NCBI GenBank assembly: GCA_023487035.1
Contig: JAMDEN010000027.1
Location: 1 to 50,671, forward strand
Origin: Actinomycetota bacterium
GTDB taxonomy: Bacteria > Actinomycetota > Humimicrobiia > Humimicrobiales > Humimicrobiaceae
Direction: 5' to 3'
DNA: 50,671 nucleotides
This document shows, piece after piece, positions 37,575 through 44,361 of this stretch (its first letter is position 1; each line of letters opens with the position of its first letter). The translations under genes and the position numbers were made by a program. The notes under the pieces are model-generated. The model was not told where the DNA came from. It saw only the letters and a list, made by a program, of their open reading frames with translations, and did not search any database.

Positions 37575-37930
37575 ATGAAAGAGGGTAAAAATAATGAAAT
37601 AGTAGAAAAGATAATAACGTATTCAAAGGAAATCCATCTTCCTGCTATTAGAAAATATTTAAGTGAGGAACTTGACACAGCAAGAAGCAAAAATTTAAGC
37701 TATGAAGAGTTTTTATGCAGTATTTTAGAAAAAGAATATGATATGCGGCAAGATAACGGTAAGCTTGCCAGGATAAGAATTGCAGGCTTTCCATGCAAGA
37801 AATACATTGAAGATTTAAAAATTGAAGAGCTTCCTGTAGACGGCGCCAACAAACTAAAAATGCTTACAAGTCTTGAATTTATTAAAAGCGGCACCAATGT
37901 AATACTTGCAGGGTCGACCGGGACCGGTAA
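37575..37930 (+). pseudogene. istB: IstB 5' fragment (first 118 codons)
   Basis: ATG follows the istA stop directly. The frame codes the N-terminal part of the IstB ATPase helper and reaches its Walker A (GSTGTG) at about residues 113-118, where the RIT element begins within the Lys codon. Reading then continues into element DNA and would add about 27 unrelated residues before TAA at 38012. Joining to 42843-43305 and removing one CGGTAA copy restores a 272-residue IstB with GSTGTGKTH. Confidence 0.93.
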
Positions 37931-37961
37931 TTATGTAAAGTTTTTGTTTATGGAAAGAAAT
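37925..37961 (+). repeat. RIT left terminal inverted repeat (37 bp)
   Basis: Bases 37925-37961 are the exact reverse complement of 42780-42816, all 37 positions. The repeat starts with CGGTAA, continues with TTATGTAAAG, and contains TTATGGAAAG at 37948-37957. An inverted CTTTCCATAA lies further in at 38003-38012, giving a paired-arm layout probably used for recombinase binding. Confidence 0.92.
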
Positions 37962-38025
37962 TCACAAAATAAGCACAAAGTTATCATACCTATTAGTGAA
38001 ATCTTTCCATAATATTTACCAGTTT

Positions 38026-39048
38026 TTATCTACAAAAATTGTTAAGCCAATTTAAAAGATCAGTATCTTCCTGCCAGACAGGAATATCCTGTTTTACAAC
38101 TTCCATATAAACAGATTCCAATGCCTTTCTTTTTGTTTCAGTATCTGCTCTTAAATAAATTTCAGTTGTAGTAACATTTACATGTCCTAGTAAATCCCTT
38201 ATATAAATAAGATTTACTCCTGCCTCAAGTAGATGCATTGCTTTCGAGTGTCTTAGCATATGAGAATGAAGGCTCTCTGGAAAGAGAACTTCCGGATGGG
38301 ATTTTTTAGCCTGTTGTAAATACTTATTTAAAATATATGTTATGCCGGGTCTTGTAAATGGGTGCCTGCTGCCATTGTAAAACAGAGGATGACTTTGTCT
38401 TTCGTTTTTAAGTAAACAATTTTCCAAAATATAACTCTCCAAAAGACTTTTGGTTTTCCCCATGATAGGAACACATCTTTTTTTGTTTCCTTTTCCTGTT
38501 AATGTTATAGTGGCAGGTCTTGTAAGTCTTACGTCACCTGCTTTTAAATCGATTAATTCCTGTACCCGTGCTCCAGTATCATAGAGAGTAGTCATTATTG
38601 TTAAATCACGGCGCCCTCTTTTATTTGAGGTGTCAGGTTGTTCCAATATACACTTTAAGCTTTCCTGCAGTAGATAGCTTACTGTCTTAGTGGAGCGCTT
38701 TTTAAAGCAAATACCTAAGATTCTTTGACATTCCAGTAGAATTTCCGGTTTTTCTGACTGACTGTAACGATAAAAGCTATGAATTGCTGCAAGCCTCTGG
38801 TTACGGGTGTTAATGCCAACGCTGCGCGTTTTTTCAAGCCAGGCAAGAAAATCTCTGATTGCAACTACCTTTAATTTATCAAATGTAAGGTGCTGTGGCT
38901 TGATATTTAGTTTTAAATCACAAAATAACAGCAGTTGCTTAAACGTATCACGGTAGGACTTTATTGTATTGGTGCTTAAGTTTCGCTGTCCCGGTAAGTA
39001 ATTTGAGAGAAATTTTGTCAGCACTCTTGCAAAATCAGTCTGCTTCAT
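38026..39048 (-). CDS. RIT tyrosine recombinase C
   Basis: A 340-residue phage-integrase-type recombinase, third in the trio. The N-terminal SAM-like core-binding domain (about 1-120) precedes the catalytic domain with Arg in TGARVQEL, Lys in GKGNKKRCVP, HMLRH, LGHVN and the nucleophile Tyr in TEIYLRAD. The start overlaps the end of recombinase B by 14 bases. The full catalytic set is present, so it is probably active. Confidence 0.93.
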   Translation of the reverse strand: MKQTDFARVLTKFLSNYLPGQRNLSTNTIKSYRDTFKQLLLFCDLKLNIKPQHLTFDKLKVVAIRDFLAWLEKTRSVGINTRNQRLAAIHSFYRYSQSEKPEILLECQRILGICFKKRSTKTVSYLLQESLKCILEQPDTSNKRGRRDLTIMTTLYDTGARVQELIDLKAGDVRLTRPATITLTGKGNKKRCVPIMGKTKSLLESYILENCLLKNERQSHPLFYNGSRHPFTRPGITYILNKYLQQAKKSHPEVLFPESLHSHMLRHSKAMHLLEAGVNLIYIRDLLGHVNVTTTEIYLRADTETKRKALESVYMEVVKQDIPVWQEDTDLLNWLNNFCR

Positions 39049-40018
39049 GGGGCGTCACCTCCGGAATTAAATATGAAAATTTGTCTTCAACAGAAGCAAT
39101 AATTTTTGGATATAAATCAGCAGTAAGCCTTAAATAATGCTGCGTGCCTCTTAAATCGTTATGCCCCAGATATACGCTAAGATAGGGAAGAAGATTTGTA
39201 ATATCCTCTTTGTTTAAAACCCATTTCTTTAAGCAGTGAACAGAATGCGAATGACGAAGATCGTGGAGTCTTGGACCCTTTCCGCTATGGGAAATACCGG
39301 CCTTCCAAAGCACTTTTCTAAAAAGCTTGTAGGCAGTGCTACTTTTGTAACTTCCTCCATACGGAGAGGGAAAGAAGAATGTGCCGGGGGTGCTGTATTT
39401 ATGTACTTTATCTGCATACAGGCGGCAGTGCTCAGTTAAGTTTTCTGCCATTGGAACAATGCGCTCTTTGTTAAATTTTGTATTCCGTATAAATAAAGTT
39501 TTACTTTTAAAATCAACATCAGCAAGTTTTAAATTAAGTGCTTCTGAAATTCTAAGTCCGCATCCATATAGCATGCGCAAAAGAAGGGAAATCACCAGAT
39601 GCCGGTTGGGGGAGGAGTCTGATACAGGATAGCCATCGCATATGATAAAAATTCTTTTTAACTCTTCTTTTGAAAAAATGTAGGGCACATACGAATACCT
39701 ATCAATGCTGACAGCGCAAGCCGGGTATATGTATGCCCCATATCCAAGGCGAAGCATATATCTTGCTAGACCACGCACTGCTGAAATCCTTGCGTTTCTT
39801 GTACTTTCTGTTTCATTTGGCCTTTTTTTAGTCCAAGCAAGTACCAGCTTTTTTGGAAGTTTAGTATCTGCCAAATGTTTTTTGGCAACCAGAGCATCAA
39901 ACTGTTTTAGTAGAGATGCACATTTTGTATATTTATAGCCCGCAGCTCTATTTTCTTCAATATATCCGGCAATAAGCTTGCCAAGAATACTTTTAAAATT
40001 AATAGTTATTTCAGACAT
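39035..40018 (-). CDS. RIT tyrosine recombinase B
   Basis: A 327-residue recombinase with the start at ATG 40018 (MSEITINFKS), supported by AGGAGG about 10 bases upstream and an 8-base overlap with the end of recombinase A. Catalytic residues: Arg in GCGLRISEA, Lys in NTKFNKERIVP, HDLRHSH, LGHNDLRGTQ and Tyr in HYLRLT. A longer form from an upstream codon at 40042 would add eight residues and is less likely. Confidence 0.93.
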   Translation of the reverse strand: MSEITINFKSILGKLIAGYIEENRAAGYKYTKCASLLKQFDALVAKKHLADTKLPKKLVLAWTKKRPNETESTRNARISAVRGLARYMLRLGYGAYIYPACAVSIDRYSYVPYIFSKEELKRIFIICDGYPVSDSSPNRHLVISLLLRMLYGCGLRISEALNLKLADVDFKSKTLFIRNTKFNKERIVPMAENLTEHCRLYADKVHKYSTPGTFFFPSPYGGSYKSSTAYKLFRKVLWKAGISHSGKGPRLHDLRHSHSVHCLKKWVLNKEDITNLLPYLSVYLGHNDLRGTQHYLRLTADLYPKIIASVEDKFSYLIPEVTPHEAD

Positions 40019-41252
40019 TTTCAAACACCTCCTCAGGATCAAGTGTGCACTTTCTTAATCCTTCAATTTCTGTGCGAAGATATACTATTGTAGACCTGGA
40101 ACTTATATGGCCAAGAATTTCAGATATTACCGGCAGAGGTGTTCCTCTCTCAAGCAAGTTGCTTGCTAAGGTGTGTCTTAGGGAATGCAGTCCGTGTCGG
40201 TTTCCCTTCGGTATTAAAATTCCTGCCTCTCTCGTATATTTAGTGATTATATTGTGAAGATTGGCATCTTTTCCAAAAGCCTCATAGGGTGCTCTCATCC
40301 GTATAAAAACAAATGGCAAGCTGCTGACAGGACGTGCATTTTTTAAATAATCAATAAGTGCCCAGCCAACATCATTTAAAATGGGATAAGTTACAGTATT
40401 TTTTGTTTTATTCTGCCTTATTTGTATTGTTTTTTTGTCCCAGTTTAAATCTGATAAATTAAAAGATTTAATATCGCCTGCCCTTATGCCAAGCTTGGTA
40501 ACTAAAAGAAGTATTGCATAATCTCTTTTTCCGGTTGGACTGCCCCTGTCAATATTTTCTAGCATATTTACTACATCTTCTTTGTTCCAGACCGAAGGAA
40601 CAGGGGGGTAATAATACTTATTCTGTTTTGGCACTTTTAATGAAAGATCCTCATCGGTATATTGGTTAAGGTATAAAAACCTTAAAAATACCCTGAGTGT
40701 TGTAAGTATTGAGAAAATACTTTTTTCATGATGGGAATAGATTGTTTTTACATAATCAGATATTATACCTGCGCTAATATCATTTACATTTAAAACTCTT
40801 CTAGAATCAAGATAGTCAATGAAGAAAAAAAGTCTTTGCATACGTGTACGCATGCCTCTTTTAGAATATTCATTATTTTCGCATTCCTTTTCATATGCAG
40901 TCAGTTCTCTTTCAAACTGTGACGGCTTTACATACCCCGGCTTTTTTACAATCCTTCTAACTATTACACCATGAAGCTGCCAGTCACCTAAAACCCTTAT
41001 AAACCTAATAGGTGCTTTAAAGGATTTCGTCATGGCTTGCGCGTAGTAGTTAATCCTGCAGCCATACTTTTCATTTAAGAAGCTTCTTCCCAATTCTTCC
41101 GAAAAATAGAATTCTTTTTTCTCGTTGGCAAAGGCTATAACTCTTTTGTAAAAGGCTCTAAATCCGCAAATTGAGTTGTAGGAATAATTTAGCCTTTCAA
41201 GTTCTGCCAGCACTTTAGCGACGAGCTCTTTGATAGGTAGTTTTGTTTCCAT
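40011..41252 (-). CDS. RIT tyrosine recombinase A
   Basis: A 413-residue recombinase, first of the trio and the longest, as usual for RIT elements. An extended N-terminal part (about 1-110) precedes the core-binding domain. The catalytic set is Arg in LGIRAGDI, Lys in QNKTKNTV, HSLRH, LGHISSRST and Tyr in VYLRTE. AGGAGG lies before the ATG. The IS256 element sits 31 bases upstream of the start, between this gene and the element's right end, so it may have cut it off from its promoter. Confidence 0.93.
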   Translation of the reverse strand: METKLPIKELVAKVLAELERLNYSYNSICGFRAFYKRVIAFANEKKEFYFSEELGRSFLNEKYGCRINYYAQAMTKSFKAPIRFIRVLGDWQLHGVIVRRIVKKPGYVKPSQFERELTAYEKECENNEYSKRGMRTRMQRLFFFIDYLDSRRVLNVNDISAGIISDYVKTIYSHHEKSIFSILTTLRVFLRFLYLNQYTDEDLSLKVPKQNKYYYPPVPSVWNKEDVVNMLENIDRGSPTGKRDYAILLLVTKLGIRAGDIKSFNLSDLNWDKKTIQIRQNKTKNTVTYPILNDVGWALIDYLKNARPVSSLPFVFIRMRAPYEAFGKDANLHNIITKYTREAGILIPKGNRHGLHSLRHTLASNLLERGTPLPVISEILGHISSRSTIVYLRTEIEGLRKCTLDPEEVFENV

Positions 41253-41282
41253 ATAACACCTCCTGAATAAAATTAATAATTA

Positions 41283-41291
41283 ATCTATTTT
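41283..41291. repeat. IS256 target-site duplication, left copy
   Basis: ATCTATTTT, identical to 42705-42713 on the other side of the element. Confidence 0.9.
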
Positions 41292-42704
41292 TGAGATATA
41301 ATCAAAAGTTGTGGATTTAAAGATGGAAAAGGAGCATATCCTCCGTTAAAATATTATTGTTATCAAAAAACATAATAAGGAGAATATGCTCTATGGAAAA
41401 GTGTACAGTACAAACACAAATTATTAAAGAAGAAAATAGCTGGTCGGTACTGGAACAAGTAGCCAGAGAAGGTGCAAGAAAAATGCTTCAGTTAGCATTG
41501 GAAAATGAAGTAGGAGAATTTATACAAAGATATTCAAATCTTACAGATGATAACGGAAAGAAAGTTGTGATAAAAAACGGTTATATGCCTGCAAGGGAAA
41601 TAGTAACAGGAATGGGTCCACTTGAGATAAAGCAACCAAGAATTGATGATAGAAATCTTAAAGGATATTCAGGTGAAAGATTTACAAGTAATATCCTTCC
41701 AAGATACTTAAGGTGTATGCCCAGCATAGATAATCTGATTCCTGTCCTATATCTTAAGGGAATATCAACCAGTGATTTCCCCACCGCTCTATCAGCCATA
41801 TTGGGTGAAAAAGCTGCAGGGCTATCTGCAGCAAATATAGTGCGTCTTAAAATTAGCTGGGAGAAAGATTACATAAACTGGAAAAGTAGAGACTTAACTC
41901 ATAAGAATTATGTATATTTCTGGGTGGACTTAAATATATTTTAATGTAAGACTTGATGACAGTAAATCCTGTATTCTTGTAATAATTGGTGCAGATAAGG
42001 ATGGAAATAAAGAACTTGTTGCCGTATCTGATGGATATCGTGAAAGTAAACTTGGCTGGAAAGAGATCCTTCTAGATTTAAAACAAAGAGGATTATCCTT
42101 TGCCCCTAAGCTTGCAATAGGAGATGGAGGTCTTGGCTTCTGGGCAGCCTTAGATGAAGTTTTTCCGGAAACCAAGAGCCAGAGATGCTCATGTTCATAA
42201 AACTTCAAACATTTTAGATAAAATGCCAAAGGCTATTCAGCCAAAAGCAAAGAGCATGATTTATGAAATGTATATGGCCCCTTCTAAAGAAAGTGCACTA
42301 AAAGCATATGATCATTTTATTAAAACATTTGAACCCAAATATCCAAAAGCTATGGAGTGCCTTGTAAAAGACAAAGAGAGTCTATTTACTTTTTATGATT
42401 TTCCTGCAACCCACTGGATTCACATACGTACCACTAATCCCATTGAATCAACTTTTGCAACAGTTCGTTTAAGAACTAATAAGACAAAAGGATGCGGGAG
42501 TAGAGCTGCTACTCTGTCTATGGTTTTTAAGCTTACAATGGAGGCTTCTAAAAACTCATTTAAAACTTAAAGGTCACAAGCTAATACTGCTTGTACTTGA
42601 AAACAGGAAATTTGTTGATGGGGAACTTGCTGAGGAGGTGGCTGCATAATGGTGTTCTGGAGGATGTGTAAAATTTCTCATCCACAACATTTGACAATAT
42701 CTCA
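41292..42704 (+). mobile_element. IS256-family insertion sequence inside the RIT element
   Basis: A 1413-bp element with imperfect 25-bp terminal inverted repeats (TGAGATATAATC... left; 22 of 25 positions match the complement of the right end). It is flanked by a perfect 9-bp target duplication, ATCTATTTT, at 41283-41291 and 42705-42713. Size, duplication length and transposase type agree with IS256. The intact duplication shows that insertion came after the RIT element was in place or inside its circular form. Confidence 0.92.
41393..42649 (+). pseudogene. IS256-family transposase, broken by three frameshifts
   Basis: The frame starts at ATG 41393 after AAGGAGA. It codes a mutator/IS256 transposase (NGYMPAREIVTGMGPLEIKQPR, then YVYFWVD) up to TAA at 41942. 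The protein resumes in another frame (IYFNVRLDDSK to ETKSQRC), shifts again near 42189 (VHKTSNILDKMPK to KLTMEASKN) and a third time near 42557 (LKLKGHKLILLVLENRKF) to TAA at 42647-42649. Each break is a net +1: four bases (TTAA, TCAT, TCAT) stand where the family has one codon, Gly, Trp and Trp. Restored, it would be about 400 residues, the family length. Either decay or base-calling error can explain this. Confidence 0.88.
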
Positions 42705-42713
42705 ATCTATTTT
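42705..42713. repeat. IS256 target-site duplication, right copy
   Basis: ATCTATTTT, identical to 41283-41291; both copies belong to the RIT element's interior. Confidence 0.9.
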
Positions 42714-42779
42714 GATATGTTATGGAAAGAAATAAAAATATATTTGAAAATATTAAGCTTAAAATAAAAATATATGCTT

Positions 42780-42816
42780 ATTTCTTTCCATAAACAAAAA
42801 CTTTACATAATTACCG
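42780..42816 (-). repeat. RIT right terminal inverted repeat (37 bp)
   Basis: Perfect partner of 37925-37961. A TTATGGAAAG arm lies inward at 42720-42729, opposite CTTTCCATAA at 42784-42793, mirroring the layout of the left end (arm pairs spanning about 65 bases on the left and 74 on the right). Confidence 0.92.
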
Positions 42817-42842
42817 TTATGGAAAGCTTTCCATAACGGTAA
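42811..42842. repeat. 32-bp perfect palindrome at RIT right junction
   Basis: The block reads TTACCG, TTATGGAAAG, CTTTCCATAA, CGGTAA and equals its own reverse complement. The left six bases end the 37-bp repeat, and the right six are the duplicated target copy. CTTTACATAA, the 6-base TTACCG and TTATGGAAAG (42801-42826) also form an arm-spacer-arm core like a tyrosine-recombinase crossover site. The left end has no such extra 20-bp unit. Confidence 0.92.
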
Positions 42843-43305
42843 GACCCATATTTCAATAGGGCTTGGAATAAAGGCAGCTATAGCAGGATACAGGGTTCTT
42901 TTTACGACAGTTCCACTGCTTATTAACCAGCTAAAGGAAGCAAGAGGAGCATCTACTCTTCGTTCATTTGAGCTTAGGTTTGAAAAATATGACCTTGTAA
43001 TAGCTGATGAGCTTGGTTATATATCATTTGATAAAGAAGGTTCAGAGCTTTTGTTTACAAACCTCTCCCTTAGGGCAGGAAGAAAATCAACAATAATTAC
43101 AACTAACCTTTCATTTGAGCGGTGGGATGAGATATTTCTTGACCCCGTAATTACTGCAGCGATGATAGACAGGCTAACGCATAAATCCTATATGGTTAAT
43201 ATGAACGGGCCATCTTACAGGATGAAGGAAACAAAAGAGTGGCTGGCAAAACAAAAGGAGGCGGCAGAGTTTTTGATTGAAGAAAAGGATGAAGAAATCA
43301 ATTAA
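42843..43305 (+). pseudogene. istB: IstB 3' fragment (codons 119-272)
   Basis: The rest of the split IstB resumes exactly at the third base of the Walker A Lys codon. It contains Walker B (LVIADELGY), the sensor region TIITTNLSFERW and the C-terminal DRLTHKSYMVNMNG of IS21 helpers. An internal ATG at 43051 could start a short truncated product, but it would lack Walker A and B and so be non-functional. Confidence 0.93.
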
Positions 43306-43678
43306 GATTTAAAGCAGGATATTTTTTTTACTTAAAGGCAAAAATGACCTTTTACAATCGATTTTAAGACACGATAATTTATTATCTATAGATAAATGTA
43401 CGGCAAATTTAAGGATAGAAAGTGAGGAAAATGATGGTTTAGTATTTATTATTTTTTTAGGTAAGTGGGGTACTTTTCGACTGAAATATGGTGTACTTTT
43501 CGATTGTAAAAAACACCTTTCATTTTAAAACTGCTCTGATTTTAATTCTCTTTTTTAAGCCATTCTTTTATATGTTAATAATAAATATTGACACAGGAAT
43601 ATCAATGATGTATACATATATCATTAAGATTAAAATTATAAAAGATTATAAAGGTTTAAGGATTACTAATATTTGATT
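43306..43678. other. IS21 right end and spacer to the toxin-antitoxin pair
   Basis: After istB there are about 155 bases of non-coding IS21 DNA, then the right inverted end (43462-43500). The remaining 180 bases to the antitoxin start are host A/T-rich DNA with no clear promoter; ATATTGACAC near 43585 could serve as a -35. Confidence 0.5.
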
Positions 43679-43927
43679 ATGAAGAGAACACAAATATATA
43701 TAGACGAGAATATTTATAGTGATATTGAAAAAGAAGCAAAACATGAGAGAAGAACTGTGTCTGATCTTATAAGAGAGATGCTTTCAAGAGAGTTAAGGAT
43801 AAGAAATAGAGAAAAATCTGTTAAGTCTGCAGAAATTCTCATAAAACTGATTAATCTCGCAGCAGAAGGTCCGGCAGATCTGTCTGTTAAAGGTGAGGAT
43901 TATCTTATTGAGGAGTTAACAAAGTGA
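43679..43927 (+). CDS. VapB-type antitoxin, ribbon-helix-helix
   Basis: An 82-residue protein from ATG 43679, or 84 from a TTG at 43673 that has better spacing to TAAGGA. The N-terminal strand KRTQIYIDENIY and following helices (EAKHERRTVSDLIREML) form a CopG/Arc-type DNA-binding fold. The acidic C terminus would bind and block the toxin. The toxin GTG overlaps its stop by four bases, showing translational coupling. It probably represses its own operon. Confidence 0.85.
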   Translation: MKRTQIYIDENIYSDIEKEAKHERRTVSDLIREMLSRELRIRNREKSVKSAEILIKLINLAAEGPADLSVKGEDYLIEELTK

Positions 43928-44361
43928 GTGTCTTTATTGATGCGAGTGCATTTTATGCGTTATTAAATAAAAATGATAACTTTCATAATGAAGCTATAAT
44001 TATAAGCAGTATTTTGTCTAAAAACAATGAACATCTTATAACTTCAAATTATACGCTTGCTGAAACATATACTGTTCTAAGAAGTAAAATGGGCTATGAT
44101 ATTGCATCAAAATTTGCAAATGAGATTAAAAAGAATCTGATAGAGATTATCTGGGTTGACGAAATTATTCATAATAGGGGACTTGAAGTATTTCTGGAGA
44201 AAAAAGAACCTGAAGACTTAAGTTTTTTTGATTGTATAGATTTTGCATTAATGGAAAGCGCAGGAATAGAAAAAGCTTTCAGTTTTGACAGGCATTTTAA
44301 AATCCTTGGGATTACACTGGTTGAATCCCAAATTCATCTTAATTCTAAAACTTCAAACTAA
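43924..44361 (+). CDS. VapC-type PIN-domain ribonuclease toxin
   Basis: A 145-residue PIN-domain protein with a GTG start. Acidic active-site residues are Asp6 (VFIDASAF), Glu47 (TLAETYT), Asp103 (FFDCIDFA) and Asp122 (FSFDRHF), the usual four that hold Mg2+. VapC toxins cut tRNA or rRNA. With the antitoxin gene directly upstream this is a complete type II toxin-antitoxin pair, next to the IS21 end. Its stop is 10 bases from the converging GH65 gene. Confidence 0.9.
   Translation: MSVFIDASAFYALLNKNDNFHNEAIIISSILSKNNEHLITSNYTLAETYTVLRSKMGYDIASKFANEIKKNLIEIIWVDEIIHNRGLEVFLEKKEPEDLSFFDCIDFALMESAGIEKAFSFDRHFKILGITLVESQIHLNSKTSN

Follow-up and report, generated by a model that had tools for sequence, protein, structure and literature searches.

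A RIT element in an istB gene and the anatomy of its ends

The window, i.e. the whole stretch of 50,671 nucleotides that was analysed, contains a recombinase-in-trio (RIT) element that interrupts an IS21 istB gene (Table 1). In-silico joining of the two flanks with a single CGGTAA gives an uninterrupted istB reading, GSTGTGKTHISIGLG. Between its ends the element holds only ritA, ritB, ritC and a broken insertion sequence. The three recombinase genes are consecutive, lie on the same strand and are of the RitA, RitB and RitC types, each intact and encoding a full phage-integrase domain, and their homologues are co-linear in trios. RIT proteins have been described as about 315-410 aa long, with genes overlapping by 4-8 bp (PMC3414803). 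The lengths found here fit this range; ritA and ritB overlap by 8 bp, and ritB and ritC by 14 bp, which exceeds the published values. Two core-binding domains have been reported in RitA (PMC8138268), and the structure model of the present RitA places four-helix bundles at 7-94 and 111-195, with a mean pLDDT of 82 and a pTM of only 0.54. On this model, RitA might hold two half-sites simultaneously.

The Mutator/IS256-like insertion is located between ritA and the right end of the RIT, and its broken transposase is seen as two ORFs (41393-41944 and 42154-42570). Subtraction of this IS and its repeat (1422 bp) from the 4880 bp of the element leaves 3458 bp, which fits the usual RIT size of about 3.5 kb (PMC3414803). 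A protein search in related genomes found no near-identical copy of this exact element elsewhere. Beside the element, two small adjoining genes at 43673-44361 resemble, judged by translation, a ribbon-helix-helix antitoxin and a PIN-domain toxin.

Table 1 Features of the RIT element and its insertion site, in window coordinates
Feature	Position	Strand	Remarks
istB 5' part (IS21 ATP-binding)	37575-37930	+	interrupted in Walker A motif; flanks joined with one CGGTAA restore ILAGSTGTGKTHISIGLG
Plain-end 6-mer CGGTAA	37925-37930	+	native target bases; role from comparison with other copies
RIT element	37931-42810	-	in IS21 istB gene
Outer half-site (o), ritC-side end	37931-37940	+	TTATGTAAAG; directly abuts CGGTAA
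Inner half-site (m)	37948-37957	+	TTATGGAAAG; 7 bp inward of o
Inverted inner half-site (m'), ritC-side end	38003-38012	-	
ritC	38026-39048	-	tyrosine recombinase, 340 aa; PF00589, E=5e-30
ritB	39035-40018	-	tyrosine recombinase, 327 aa; PF00589, E=2e-25
ritA	40011-41252	-	tyrosine recombinase, 413 aa; PF00589; catalytic domain preceded by two predicted four-helix core-binding bundles
Mutator/IS256-like insertion	41291-42704	+	broken transposase; 8-bp direct repeat ATCTATTT at 41283-41290 and 42705-42712
Inverted inner half-site (m'), ritA-side end	42720-42729	+	
Inner half-site (m), ritA-side end	42784-42793	-	CTTTCCATAA
Outer half-site (o'), ritA-side end	42801-42810	-	CTTTACATAA
Inner 6-mer TTACCG	42811-42816	+	spacer of unused core; by the model, the 6-mer of the parent site
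20-bp palindrome	42817-42836	.	TTATGGAAAGCTTTCCATAA; halves 42817-42826 TTATGGAAAG and 42827-42836 CTTTCCATAA, i.e. two inverted inner half-sites
Outer 6-mer CGGTAA	42837-42842	+	by the model, carried spacer of the core used for the present insertion
istB 3' part	42843-43305	+	remainder of interrupted gene

Both ends present the same trio of half-sites, namely an outer arm, an inner arm 7 bp further in and an inverted inner arm about 50 bp deeper. They form a perfect inverted repeat of 37 bp with the 6-mers and of 31 bp without them, in line with the RIT criterion of about 28-34 bp. The right end carries, in addition, the unit pointed out in the first-pass annotation, in which an arm-6 bp-arm core with a TTACCG spacer is followed by the rest of a palindrome and by CGGTAA; its coordinates agree with that description, and the left, ritC-side end is devoid of it. 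From 42811 to 42842 the sequence is a perfect 32-bp palindrome, because all three 6-mers of the window read CGGTAA. Such identity is what one would expect if the element has moved between istB genes that share their Walker A codons; since the three are equal, the window is uninformative on the polarity of the 6 bp.

A 32-bp palindrome that is perfect and confined to one end, in an assembly that is 80% complete and divided into 174 contigs, is a typical suspect for a one-off local duplication or a fold-back or hairpin artefact of the contig. As a general explanation this is refuted by the occurrence of the unit at the identical 6-bp distance in dozens of unrelated copies, complete plasmids and chromosomes included, and we consider its probability to be negligible.

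Distribution and orientation of the one-ended palindrome

RIT copies were sampled by protein search in related genomes, by a scan of 84,980 species genomes and from plasmids; the alignment used for the genome scan biases the set to one RitC clade. Both ends were located by script via their shared arms, and 78 copies had both ends readable. The palindrome is present at exactly one end in 61 of them (33 on the ritA side, 28 on the ritC side), at both ends in 2 and at none in 15. The 61 one-ended copies span Actinobacteria, Proteobacteria, Firmicutes and others. The 156 RIT ends were scored for 20-bp palindromes that pair at 8 or more of their 10 positions. Of these, 59 stand precisely 6 bp away from the outer arm, and no other distance is seen more than twice, a spacing beyond chance. 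The palindrome halves match the inner arm of the same element at 8.5 of 10 positions on average. These data confirm that the one-ended palindrome is characteristic of RITs in general, with dozens of unrelated copies carrying it, and is not a local accident. The comparison of copies and borders that the first-pass annotation had suggested thus does away with the idea of a one-off. Its view of the right end as unusual is upheld as regards the one-ended unit, and not as regards a peculiarity of the window copy.

Some of the 15 copies without a palindrome proved, by eye, to be failures of end detection, e.g. L112, whose half-sites read TTGTT. Genuine exceptions are L014 and L121, with two plain ends, and L090 and L141, with two palindromes; in both of the latter the A-side outer 6-mer equals the C-side inner 6-mer. 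Recombination between copies or chimeric assembly may explain these four. L014 is a second RIT of the same genome as the window (contig C109, 21.3-25.4 kb), about 50% identical to the window element. Each of its plain ends falls within an HxLRH motif, the two motifs belonging to different xer-like recombinase genes. A solo palindrome, as would be left by a second crossover at L014, was searched for in this genome and none was found.

When the flanks of the copies were joined with a single 6-mer, an open reading frame was obtained in most of them, often with recognisable motifs of IstB, IstA, IS256, IS66, IS110, ISAs1, Xer-like and strawberry-notch proteins. The palindrome as part of the target was rejected on this basis, as flanks rejoined with one 6-mer give ORFs. 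Strawberry-notch helicase genes of alphaproteobacterial plasmids (L198-L220) are a recurrent target of one RIT group, with up to 4 copies per strain.

The palindrome lies on a constant side of the target motif in 33 of 33 insertions, whichever way round the A and C ends are. This was established for the five target classes in which both orientations occur (IstB VIDE, IS256, DUF3489, ISAs1 and strawberry-notch). Palindromes that are not fully symmetric have their left half towards the A-end and their right half towards the C-end, at whichever side they are found. Examples are those of Rhodobacteraceae AG16, on the C side in L188 and L189 and on the A side in L190, and those of Sphingobium, on the A side in L063 and L206 and on the C side in L207. 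An exception is L209, whose palindrome is inverted. The simplest reading of these sequences would be a mobile form with the palindrome between the ends (A-a-palindrome-b-C), in which integration opens core a or core b.

Native and carried 6-mers

Each insertion offers three 6-mers, termed plain, inner and outer. The plain one is at the end opposite the palindrome, the inner one separates the palindrome from the outer arm, and the outer one lies past the palindrome. Uninterrupted strawberry-notch homologues show the residues WGIIHRN of L206 to be native with the plain-end 6-mer, where the outer one would give WAIIHRN. In the same way, L200 has AFAIIHNN, with an exact GCCATC, at its plain end, and the outer 6-mer would give AFRTIHNN. 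The IS256 motif RCRVHKTRN is retained in L084 only with the plain 6-mer, and in L054 the motif QTCVLHLIRN is kept with the plain 6-mer, better than with the alternative. L184 and L185 lie in identical stretches of one IS and both present ATCGTG at the plain end. A search for empty IS sites in Mycobacterium and Rhodobacteraceae genomes gave none that was usable. By these comparisons, the native 6-mer of the target stays at the plain end.

Near-identical RIT copies, of RITs other than that of the window, occur at different targets in multi-copy strains, and their 6-mers are linked by a simple rule: the inner 6-mer of a daughter equals the plain 6-mer of its donor, and the outer 6-mer of the daughter equals the inner 6-mer of the donor. 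Of the 11 multi-copy strains, 10 follow the rule, with 16 ordered pairs in all; 11 of these pairs are informative, i.e. the donor 6-mers are not all equal. Examples of such chains are L185 to L184; L188 to L190 to L189; L200 to L201; L203 to both L202 and L204; L206 to L207; L213 to L214; and L217 to L218. Four pairs, those of P11, SCSIO 75233, S. amiense and S. xenophagum, came to be read when the rule was already recorded. Shuffling of the 6-mer roles within copies gave a mean of 3.0 and a maximum of 10, the value of 11 never being reached in 5000 trials. Over all ordered pairs, cross-strain matches to the chain rule amounted to 5, every one between Sagittula and Paracoccus, strains in which the RIT proteins are annotated under the same accessions. 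In the eleventh strain, N. pentaromativorans, the outer 6-mer of L219 equals the plain 6-mer of L220 with the palindrome on the same side, and this pair fits only with one unsampled intermediate. For strain US6-1 the missing copy is predicted to have its palindrome on the A side, with GATGCC as inner, CACGGC as outer and GATCGC as plain 6-mer.

These chains bear on the possibility that the palindrome is remade at each insertion by fold-back copying of the element end and the target 6-mer through a hairpin intermediate, the inner 6-mer being then a copy of the local target. The strong single-strand fold of the 32-mer (-13.1 kcal/mol, z = -7.7) and the identity of all three 6-mers in 20 of 60 scored copies, the window among them, would suit such a process. 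In many copies, however, the local target and the inner 6-mer are different, the latter being identical to the target of a sibling copy, and asymmetric palindromes hold their A-to-C orientation at both sides, which makes fold-back copying very improbable.

In all 11 informative pairs the palindrome is at opposite ends of donor and daughter. This strict alternation was noticed post hoc, after the pairs were assembled; most informative pairs are from one group, the strawberry-notch RITs of Alphaproteobacteria, and none from the subfamily of the window element. If the alternation holds, the core closing on exit would differ from the core opening on landing. A two-core circle whose polarity the element itself determines (from A to C, in the manner of SE elements) predicts no alternation, its carried 6-mers remaining unchanged and the copies being siblings of one circle. 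One shared circle each would indeed account for 10 sibling pairs, but it misses L198-L200, L211-L212, L215-L216 and L188-L190. Moreover, A-side copies would then have their native 6-mer at the outer junction, where the homologues and IS256 motifs (L200, L206, L084, L054) indicate the plain end, and we regard a fixed polarity as unlikely.

A candidate two-core joint and its relation to known systems

What is established at the level of sequence is the anatomy of the ends, the general occurrence of the palindrome at one end only, the side that it takes at the target, and the polarity and chains of the 6-mers; a mechanism can be proposed that would unite them. In order, the joint of the mobile form would comprise the A-end, a 6-bp stretch a, the 20-bp palindrome, a second 6-bp stretch b and the C-end. 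A tyrosine-recombinase core would be made up of either palindrome half, a 6-bp spacer and one outer arm, so that the joint would consist of two inverted cores. At insertion, one core would recombine with a 6-bp target; the 6 bp of the target itself would then adjoin the outer arm at the plain end, the carried 6 bp would land past the palindrome, and the unused core would remain whole between the palindrome and the opposite outer arm. On exit, the plain end would join the free palindrome half, carrying the plain-end 6-mer along, and the next insertion would open the other core, so that with every jump the element would be turned round with respect to the target motif. The 6-mers would thereby act as a shift register, in which plain stands for the present site, inner for the parent and outer for the grandparent.

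We assign this whole reading, i.e. the two-core palindromic joint, the 6-mer polarity, the reversal at each jump and the shift register, a probability of about 0.75. The circular intermediate is putative and RitABC are the predicted catalysts; movement is presumed to be by copying out (replicative) rather than cutting out, because donor and daughter coexist in finished genomes. The three recombinases might serve three kinds of half-site, namely outer arm, palindrome arm and target. The role of the 6-mer as coupling sequence in a tyrosine-recombinase-like crossover core, put forward in the first-pass annotation, is borne out. Its guess of a circle junction survives in part: a retained circle joint is the best explanation of the right end, but not as a simple A-end/6 bp/C-end junction, since the palindrome is a separate module.

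The palindrome could instead serve mainly as a folded single-stranded recombination site (an attC-like hairpin) or as a regulatory operator, with its position at the end being secondary. Its strong single-strand fold agrees with this, as does the earlier belief that SE elements move single-stranded (PMC10214605). The SE intermediate, however, turned out to be double-stranded (PMC10214605), and the fixed 6-bp spacing, the identity of the halves with the element's own inner half-site and the transfer from end to end fit a double-strand core, so that a hairpin or operator function is highly unlikely to be the main one.

SE elements (Idola et al. 2023, PMC10214605) resemble RITs in having a 6-bp spacer, with the target 6 bp at one junction and the carried 6 bp at the other, a polarity that RITs show in general. 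As proposed for RITs, the 6-mer of the donor flank enters the circle, and donors are apparently kept (PMC10214605). SEs have a strand-biased nicked circular intermediate and leave no empty site. They differ in their four core genes (two active tyrosine recombinases), their simple C/C' joint and a polarity fixed to one end, whereas in RITs the polarity goes with the palindrome, and the two ends can exchange their parts. The SE gene set intA-tfp-intB-srap is absent from the window element.

Tn554 and its relatives also use several tyrosine recombinases, and a 6-bp footprint that lay left of the donor reappears on the right at the new site (PMC10214605). The RIT polarity equals that of SE and Tn554, the plain end corresponding to left and the palindrome end to right. 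The Tn554 family genes tnpA, tnpB and tnpC are absent from the window element. To our knowledge, no palindrome module is known in Tn554 and its relatives.

In the description of RIT elements by Van Houdt et al. 2012 (PMC3414803), the repeats were said not to fit the usual binding sites and the palindrome was given no role. RIT mobility was stated there to await experimental proof, and RIT movement and empty sites are listed as not tested in PMC10214605. The one-ended position, the two-core joint, the native and carried 6-mers and the alternation were not found in the RIT literature covered, a coverage to which Ricker et al. 2013 (Plasmid 70:226) does not belong; novelty is claimed for the mechanism and not for the existence of the palindrome. 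That RITs follow an undescribed alternating-core mechanism, in which a hinge with two inverted cores reverses the element at each move and keeps the 6-mers of the last two landing sites, seems to us moderately probable.

With respect to RIT movement, the palindrome supplies a concrete anatomy of the proposed joint, and it would explain the variable RIT ends of earlier authors. If the mechanism is true, each copy has a built-in record of its recent moves: its 6-mers would name the parent and grandparent sites, and donor-to-daughter trees could be read in finished genomes. A mobile element that passes a piece of its end to the opposite side whenever it jumps would add a new variation to transposition by tyrosine recombinases.

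The circle joint was not found in 2.9 million viral contigs or in 396 genomes of the phylum. Three viral matches to the full-joint pattern were rejected as ordinary insertions whose target begins with TTATG. RITs are also present in phage-like viral contigs (L224, L225 and L226); in L225 the insertion seems to lie where a portal-like gene ends. The target bases that follow the 6-mer (TTATGGAAAG) are similar to the outer arm.
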